Assembly: GCA_017515475.1 (NCBI GenBank) | Contig: JAFWFS010000007.1 | Span: forward strand, 124,001-188,000 | Length of the DNA: 64,000 bases | Direction: 5' to 3' | Source: Erysipelotrichaceae bacterium | GTDB lineage: Bacteria; Bacillota_I; Bacilli_A; Erysipelotrichales; Erysipelotrichaceae | Shown here: positions 51,573 to 53,329 of the stretch, one piece after another | Numbering within the stretch: position 1 is the first letter of the stretch | How the letters are laid out: every line of letters starts with the position of its first letter | Program-made: the position numbers and the translations under genes | Notes under the pieces: model-generated | Told to the model about the DNA's origin: nothing | The model's input: the letters and a program-made list of their open reading frames with translations, nothing else | Database searches by the model: none

Positions 51573-51722
51573 TTATTTTGCGCCGCAGTTCGGGCAAGCG
51601 CGGTGAGCCAGCTTGTATTCGCCACATGAAGGGCATTTTACCATAGCCGGGGTCATTAATTTATAATGGGTTCTTCTTTTTGCTTTACGGGTCTTTGAAT
51701 TTCTTCTTTGCTGAACAGCCAT
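51573..51722 (-). CDS. rpmF: Ribosomal protein L32
   Basis: A 49-residue zinc-type L32. It begins [20 protein letters not shown] and continues with a zinc site CPSC (residues 30-33) and CPNC (43-46), ending GAK. The start is one base from the yceD stop, the conserved yceD-rpmF pair. GAGGAGG-like purines in the yceD end serve as Shine-Dalgarno. Two hairpin terminators follow. Confidence 0.96.
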
Positions 51723-51723
51723 C

Positions 51724-52218
51724 TCAATCTTCCTCCTCGAATTTGTATTCCATAAGCTTCTGTAGACGCGGATCTATTTCATCTTTTCGGGACGATTCAT
51801 AGTCTTCCTCGGATACAAAAGACCAGCCATCCCCACTAGAATACTCTATTTTTTCTTTTTTTTCAACTTTTATCGGAACTTCCGGTAAAACGATCTGCAG
51901 GACAGCTGTTTCGATCTCCGTTGCATTATCCAGAAAGAATCCTTCTTCATCCTGTTTTGTTACGACCCGATCATCGTCGTTCAGCTCAAACGGGACTCTG
52001 ACATCTTCCAGAGTGAACGCGCAGGGACAGATAAAGTCGCCTGAAAGAGAATAATTGATCCTCAGATCATCCGCAGGACCATAATAGAAGCTGACGTCCC
52101 CTGCGACGTTTTCCAGTCTTCTAAGAAAGAGATTGTCTTTCACGTCATAGGAATCGATATCTACCGGATAGACTTTTTCATCCGCAATGTTCATCAGATC
52201 TTTTAGATAGATTTTCAT
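51724..52218 (-). CDS. yceD: YceD family (DUF177) protein
   Basis: A 164-residue protein linked to 23S rRNA accumulation in bacteria and plants. Family features are the two Cys-region residues in [20 protein letters not shown] and the acidic C-terminal part ending [16 protein letters not shown]. Its position directly before rpmF supports the call. It is divergent from tmcAL with 22 bp between starts, no Shine-Dalgarno, and TATAAT 6 nt before ATG. Confidence 0.9.
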
Positions 52219-52224
52219 AGGATT

Positions 52225-52234
52225 ATTATATAAT
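52225..52234. promoter_or_regulatory. Shared palindromic -10 of the divergent yceD and tmcAL genes
   Basis: ATTATATAAT reads TATAAT on both strands: 52229-52234 on plus, 52225-52230 on minus. Each copy ends exactly 6 nt before an ATG (52241 plus, 52218 minus). The whole gap is 22 bp, with no room for a Shine-Dalgarno. Both transcripts are predicted leaderless and mutually exclusive at any instant. Confidence 0.75.
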
Positions 52235-52240
52235 ATTCAT

Positions 52241-53329
52241 ATGAAAATTACAGGCATCATTACCGAATACAATCCGTTTCATAACGGCCATGTCTATCAT
52301 ATACAGAAAGCCATAGAACTCACCCGTCCGGATGTTCTGGTAGCGGTAATGAGCGGCAACTACTCACAGCGTGGCGATTTATCCGTCATGGACAAGTTTC
52401 AGAAGACGGAGACTGCGCTGAAACATGGAGTAGATCTTGTCGTAGAACTGCCTTTTATCGATACCGTACAGAATGCCTATGTCTTCGGTAAGAAAGCCGT
52501 ACACCTGCTGAATCTGCTGCATGCGGACCATCTTGTCTTCGGCTCCGAGACCAATAACCTGGAAGAGCTGAAAAAGTACAGTGAGCTTGAGATCGACGTA
52601 ACAAGGCTGAAGACGCTGCTCCATGACGGAAATTCTTTTCCGAGATCTTACGGTCTGCTTTCCGGTTCATTATATCCAAACGATATGCTGGCGGTAACCT
52701 ACCTGAAAGCCATGAAGGATACTTCCATAGCGCCTGTCTGCATCCAGCGTACCAACGGCTACCATTCGACCGATCTGGATGTCATATCCTCAGCCACAGC
52801 CATCCGCATTGCTTTGAAAGAAGGAAAAGACGTATCGAAAGCTACACCTGTCGTCATAACCGATCCGGTTTTTAATTCAGATCTGTATCCTTATCTGAGA
52901 AGATTGCTGTTTACCGTTTCAAAAGACGACCTACAGAAAATCTTCATGGTATCGGAAGGCATCGAAAACATGCTGATAAAGAATGCCGTGGAGTGCGAAG
53001 ACTATGAAGGCTTCATCGGTCGCAGCATTTCCCGAAGGTATACCAGATCCAGAATTCAAAGAACACTGCTGCATATTGCCTGCCAGATCAGGAAGGAAGA
53101 TGTCGAATGTCTACCGGAAATAGATTATCTGCGCGTCCTTGGATTCAACGAAAAAGGAAGGCGGCTTCTGAAAGATCTGAAAGATGAAGCAAATGTCATT
53201 ACCCAGTTCAAGAACCTTCCGGAGAAACACAAAGAAATCGAATGGAAGACTTCTCTGATCTATGCGTCACTTACCAAAGATCTGCAGTCGTATCTGAAGA
53301 AAGAACTGCAGGGACCGATCATTATTTAA
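52241..53329 (+). CDS. tmcAL: tRNA(Met) cytidine acetate ligase
   Basis: Forms ac4C34 in elongator tRNA-Met from acetate and ATP. The nucleotidyltransferase-like N-terminus is ITEYNPFHNGHVYHIQKA (HxGH motif), followed by VLVAVMSGNYSQRGD and RTNGYHSTDLDVISSATAIR. It has 362 residues, slightly short for the family (about 390-415). It was formerly annotated YlbM and lies next to yceD-rpmF, as in B. subtilis. The start is leaderless by spacing. Confidence 0.92.
   Translation: MKITGIITEYNPFHNGHVYHIQKAIELTRPDVLVAVMSGNYSQRGDLSVMDKFQKTETALKHGVDLVVELPFIDTVQNAYVFGKKAVHLLNLLHADHLVFGSETNNLEELKKYSELEIDVTRLKTLLHDGNSFPRSYGLLSGSLYPNDMLAVTYLKAMKDTSIAPVCIQRTNGYHSTDLDVISSATAIRIALKEGKDVSKATPVVITDPVFNSDLYPYLRRLLFTVSKDDLQKIFMVSEGIENMLIKNAVECEDYEGFIGRSISRRYTRSRIQRTLLHIACQIRKEDVECLPEIDYLRVLGFNEKGRRLLKDLKDEANVITQFKNLPEKHKEIEWKTSLIYASLTKDLQSYLKKELQGPIII

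Follow-up and report, generated by a model that had tools for sequence, protein, structure and literature searches.

A 22-bp divergent intergenic region in an Erysipelotrichaceae genome with a palindromic -10 predicted to serve two leaderless genes

The tmcAL/yceD intergenic region

Within the window (the whole stretch of 64,000 nucleotides that was analysed), a tmcAL-like gene and a yceD-like gene are divergently oriented and separated by only 22 bp. The features of this locus are as follows:

51573..51722, minus strand: rpmF (ribosomal protein L32; TIGR01031, E=4e-21), 1 nt past the yceD stop
51724..52218, minus strand: yceD-like gene (DUF177), 164 aa, adjoining rpmF (PF02620, E=2.4e-6, 28.0 bits, cut-off 33.2)
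52218, minus strand: predicted transcription start of yceD (A of ATG)
52219..52240, no strand: divergent intergenic region of 22 bp, AGGATTATTATATAATATTCAT, delimited from the sequence and the open reading frames
52225..52230 (read 52230-52225), minus strand: predicted -10 box of yceD-rpmF, TATAAT, then 6 nt, then ATG at 52218
52225..52234, no strand: ATTATATAAT, putative shared -10 composed of opposite-strand TATAAT boxes with a 2 bp overlap
52229..52234, plus strand: predicted -10 box of tmcAL, TATAAT, then 6 nt, then ATG at 52241
52241, plus strand: predicted transcription start of tmcAL (A of ATG)
52241..53329, plus strand: tmcAL-like gene (HIGH nucleotidyl transferase, PF05636), 362 aa (Pfam E=9e-99 over 342 aa)

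The tmcAL product also matches NF010191 (E=2.8e-95), with a score of 319.9 bits that is under the cut-off of 360. The PF02620 match of the YceD-like protein is below threshold, and this assignment is supported by the position of its gene beside rpmF. The rpmF gene has its own Shine-Dalgarno sequence, GAGGAGG; at this junction (51722-51726), a ribosomal protein gene with a Shine-Dalgarno sequence would be carried on a message that is itself leaderless.

An earlier note on this DNA had described the gap as containing TATAAT on both strands, each copy ending 6 nt before an ATG, with neither a Shine-Dalgarno sequence nor a free -35. This description, including the letters and coordinates of the gap, is exact. 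No Shine-Dalgarno sequence lies within usable reach (AGGA at 52219 is 18 nt away from the tmcAL ATG), and both -35 windows fall inside the opposite genes (GATAGA at 52206-52211 for the plus strand and CTGTAA at 52248-52253 for the minus strand). The transcription starts are predicted from the spacing to the -10 and from the pyrimidine at -1, which is T for both tmcAL and yceD; by this sequence-based placement, the two starts are 23 bp apart. The ATTATATAAT 10-mer is present once in the window, compared to 0.07 copies expected from shuffling, and eight times in the whole 1.3-Mb genome. A search of the window for RNA families and tRNAs identified none.

Conservation within the genus

The gap was compared among 30 aligned members of the genus, in which TmcAL identity ranges from 93% down to 55%. 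In 24/30 of these congeners, ATTATATAAT is retained with start codons 6 nt away on both sides; G004 additionally carries the palindrome, with the tmcAL side changed. Among these 25 genomes, nine of the ten palindrome columns are invariant and the tenth is conserved in 24/25, while most of the twelve flanking columns of the gap vary freely. The start codons alternate between ATG and GTG, both of which are purine-first. This pattern of a nearly invariant core between variable flanks counts in favour of a shared promoter element.

The exceptions are informative with respect to which part of the layout is maintained. Both genes are retained in G031, G024, and G009, where the gap is longer and the two -10 boxes lie apart. 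The gene upstream of tmcAL cannot be recognised as yceD in G017 and G018. Each of these five genomes retains TATAAT or TAAAAT 6 nt before tmcAL, and one of these two boxes is found at exactly this distance in 29/30 congeners overall. G020 retains the palindrome at distances of 6 and 7 nt. Judging from these alignments, what is conserved first is each gene's predicted leaderless -10; the shared palindrome is usual, not obligatory.

No Shine-Dalgarno sequence is conserved for tmcAL or yceD among the aligned congeners. Two further promoter elements were considered and rejected. A hidden -35 within the opposite genes is not apparent: in aligned relatives, the mean match to TTGACA at -35 is 2.0/6 for tmcAL and 2.6/6 for yceD, which does not exceed that at shifted positions, and the best TTGACA matches at spacers of 16-18 are no better than shifted positions, with none conserved. 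An extended -10 is similarly absent, as the congeners always have TTA (once TTC) and never TG at this position.

Leaderless signature across the genome

Position statistics were collected from 520 kb of the same genome (a draft metagenome assembly that is 90.5% complete and 4% contaminated), comprising 493 ORF models. When TATAAT boxes upstream of candidate ATG/GTG codons are sorted by distance, the counts are 0-2 for distances of 0-5 nt, 31 for 6 nt, and 11-12 for 7-8 nt; for TANAAT, there are 59 at 6 nt versus 2-6 at distances 0-5. Using a rule based on -10 distance, 63/492 genes (about 13%) were assigned as leaderless, a share that is only approximate because gene starts were chosen by a simple ORF caller whose rule favours leaderless or Shine-Dalgarno starts. 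Neither the 6-nt peak nor the reversed-pattern controls hinge on this rule.

A pyrimidine (T or C) occupies position -1 in 97% of leaderless candidates versus 48% of Shine-Dalgarno genes, which is the base preference of transcription beginning at the start codon itself. Leaderless candidates are rarely internal operon genes (4/217 among genes that follow a same-strand neighbour at a distance below 25 bp). A weak TTGnA is found at -35 in the Shine-Dalgarno-led promoters of this genome and none in the leaderless promoters, a contrast that suggests two promoter styles. The TATAAT-N5-Y-ATG pattern exceeds its reversed control in most relatives, and is strongest in the genus and some sister genera. 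We found no paper on leaderless transcripts in Erysipelotrichaceae in the literature searched.

Contig C16 of this genome (G000) carries three divergent pairs (near 73904, 93259, and 175627) that are apparently leaderless on both sides, with separate -10 boxes and gaps of 34-37 bp. Going by these three further pairs, the double-leaderless divergent arrangement is apparently a general habit in this genome.

Recurrence at other gene pairs

The complete two-sided pattern, CAY-N6-ATTATATAAT-N6-RTG, was found at 53 sites in 30/36 genomes of the genus, whose members are uncultured bacteria of the gut, and its reversed control at 0 sites in the same 36 genomes. The two-sided 6-nt layout is far above expectation in the genus and is not due to chance. 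Fifty-two of the 53 sites were read, and all have long open frames on both sides except where truncated by a contig end. These sites cluster into nine gene pairs, which are a better count of separate occurrences than 53, given that not every site in a related species represents an independent event:

tmcAL/yceD
folC/ung
GNAT acetyltransferase/GH25
HD/TraB
1-phosphofructokinase-like/murE
GH25/nuclease
M19 dipeptidase/small protein
truB/PP-loop ATPase
ispD/msrA

Relaxing the pattern to near-palindromes, with TANAAT in both directions, brings in only six more sites. This is fewer than expected from the 53% share of TATAAT among single TANAAT boxes (31/59), suggesting that the shared form is under a stricter consensus. 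We also considered whether an 18-bp bidirectional class might be the main form in this genus; with about 21 sites versus 7 in the control, this candidate was weak and was set aside. Outside the genus, the two-sided pattern is rare, with matches in 1/279 other genomes of the order and, across about 258 genomes from other orders, four matches. Of these four, just one (in G409) has long frames on both sides, and the remaining three do not resemble gene starts.

A near-variant of the layout lies outside the window at folC/ung (contig C10 of this genome, near 251792), where the palindrome is positioned 6 nt from ung and 4 and 7 nt from tandem ATG codons of folC. Some other ATTATATAAT copies in the genome are found at ordinary promoter distances from Shine-Dalgarno genes.

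Promoter model and alternatives

We consider it quite probable that the gap is a minimal bidirectional promoter for the housekeeping sigma factor, with a shared -10 and with both transcripts predicted to be leaderless at the first gene. The earlier note's proposal of one palindromic -10 for two leaderless genes is well supported by the position statistics, the Y(-1)R(+1) signature, and genus-wide conservation. In the proposed mechanism, RNA polymerase would read the TATAAT of either strand in ATTATATAAT in the absence of a recognisable -35 or extended -10, and each RNA would begin at the first base of a start codon, 23 bp from the other start. Since they would begin in this way, the tmcAL and yceD-rpmF mRNAs would both be leaderless at the first gene and depend on leaderless translation initiation, and rpmF would be translated from its own Shine-Dalgarno sequence. 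We infer the exact starts and the real use of each direction from sequence features. The lack of a -35 and an extended -10 may explain why the -10 is perfect. Expression of rpmF is expected to need to be strong, which we counted against a promoter with neither a -35 nor a TG element.

A second claim of the earlier note, that the arrangement provides built-in competition between yceD-rpmF and tmcAL, was not supported as a specific function. According to this explanation, the shared -10 is a regulatory device in which polymerase competition fixes the yceD-rpmF to tmcAL expression ratio. When promoters overlap, polymerase cannot occupy both directions simultaneously, and activated bidirectional promoters of E. 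coli do compete (PMC12825309); nevertheless, that study tested five promoters and found competition at the basal level to be negligible for every one. The same block also joins functionally unrelated genes at eight other pairs, the palindrome is split or the genes are parted in the five congeners described above, and a separate activator site does not fit in the gap. We therefore regard a competition device as unlikely. Because of the overlap, two polymerases would be expected on physical grounds to exclude each other, but at ordinary rates of firing the consequences are probably small. Given the low basal firing in the five E. coli cases and the lack of room for an activator, the layout is most likely a form of genome compaction, with a single -10 shared by two leaderless genes, and not a switch dedicated to regulation.

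Alternatively, the palindrome might be used as a -10 in one direction only, with the promoter of the other gene located within the neighbouring coding region and its leader merely overlapping the gap. A -35 site could sit in the opposite gene, and the symmetry of TATAAT lets a second box arise easily. This explanation is distinctly improbable, however, given that both boxes and the exact 6-nt distance on both sides are kept in 24/25 palindrome-bearing congeners, that neither gene has a conserved Shine-Dalgarno sequence, and that the two-sided layout occurs at nine gene pairs with no control matches. It is very improbable that ATTATATAAT is instead an operator for a palindrome-binding regulator: it has perfect dyad symmetry and recurs at several divergent pairs, but this symmetry is exactly that of two TATAAT boxes, its 6-nt distance to start codons is the one seen for single TATAAT boxes at leaderless genes, some genome copies are at ordinary promoter distances from Shine-Dalgarno genes, and the genes that it links are functionally unrelated.

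The compact shared promoter may be extended to a more tentative and rather doubtful proposal: that a 28-bp cassette, made up of a perfect palindromic -10 flanked on each side by 6 nt and then a start codon, has become fixed in the genus and has repeatedly replaced ordinary divergent regions, with a stricter -10 than that of single leaderless promoters. Such a cassette would constitute a minimal two-gene module whose symmetry would force matched strength, possibly with coupled or noise-damped output.

The tmcAL/yceD gap is a natural and repeated case in which 22 bp would accommodate the promoter of two genes together with the points where their transcription and translation begin. If correct, this model shows how small a divergent regulatory region may become and extends leaderless expression to the Erysipelotrichaceae. 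The nine gene pairs are ready material for testing coupling versus competition at symmetrical promoters.

Comparison with known systems

The Bacillus subtilis genes ylbM and ylbN-rpmF, which we take to be tmcAL and yceD-rpmF in a divergent arrangement seen in Bacillota, match this locus in both gene identity and orientation. Relatives outside the genus differ in having longer gaps or other neighbours, and many have Shine-Dalgarno-like leaders.

Leaderless genes led by a TA signal have been surveyed by Zheng et al. (2011, PMC3160421), who described a -10 approximately 12 bp before the start codon and no Shine-Dalgarno sequence, with a TAtAAT form in low-GC Firmicutes. The genes examined here resemble these in all three respects. 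In that survey, Firmicutes leaderless genes are mainly from Lactobacillales and Mycoplasma, and a term search of the paper for Erysipelotrichaceae was negative; by contrast, predicted leaderless genes are common in this genome, and two would share a single box. On both sides of the gap, the sequence has the N6 spacing, the lack of a usable Shine-Dalgarno sequence, and the pyrimidine -1/purine +1 of a leaderless gene.

Bacterial bidirectional promoters with a symmetrical -10 are known from the work of Warman, Grainger and colleagues (PMC12825309, PMC10268837). Divergent starts in this class are 7-25 bp apart, with 10, 18, or 23 bp preferred, and basal firing of five E. coli examples was too low for competition, which occurred only once one direction was activated (PMC12825309). 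We found no papers linking leaderless genes to bidirectional promoters in bacteria in the literature searched. As in this class, the opposite-strand -10 elements of ATTATATAAT overlap (by 2 bp), one -10 region is present for both strands, the predicted starts are 23 bp apart, and mutual exclusion is expected; by sequence, the site fits the 23-bp bidirectional class. Three differences are apparent. The 23-bp class dominates in this genus (53 versus 0 in the control, compared to about 21 versus 7 for 18 bp), unlike in E. coli, where the 18-bp class is usual. Almost all of the -10 elements are perfect palindromes. Finally, both predicted starts are start codons, such that the whole intergenic region would be promoter: a -10 shared at 23-bp spacing is known, and we read the predicted leaderless state of both transcripts as what is new.
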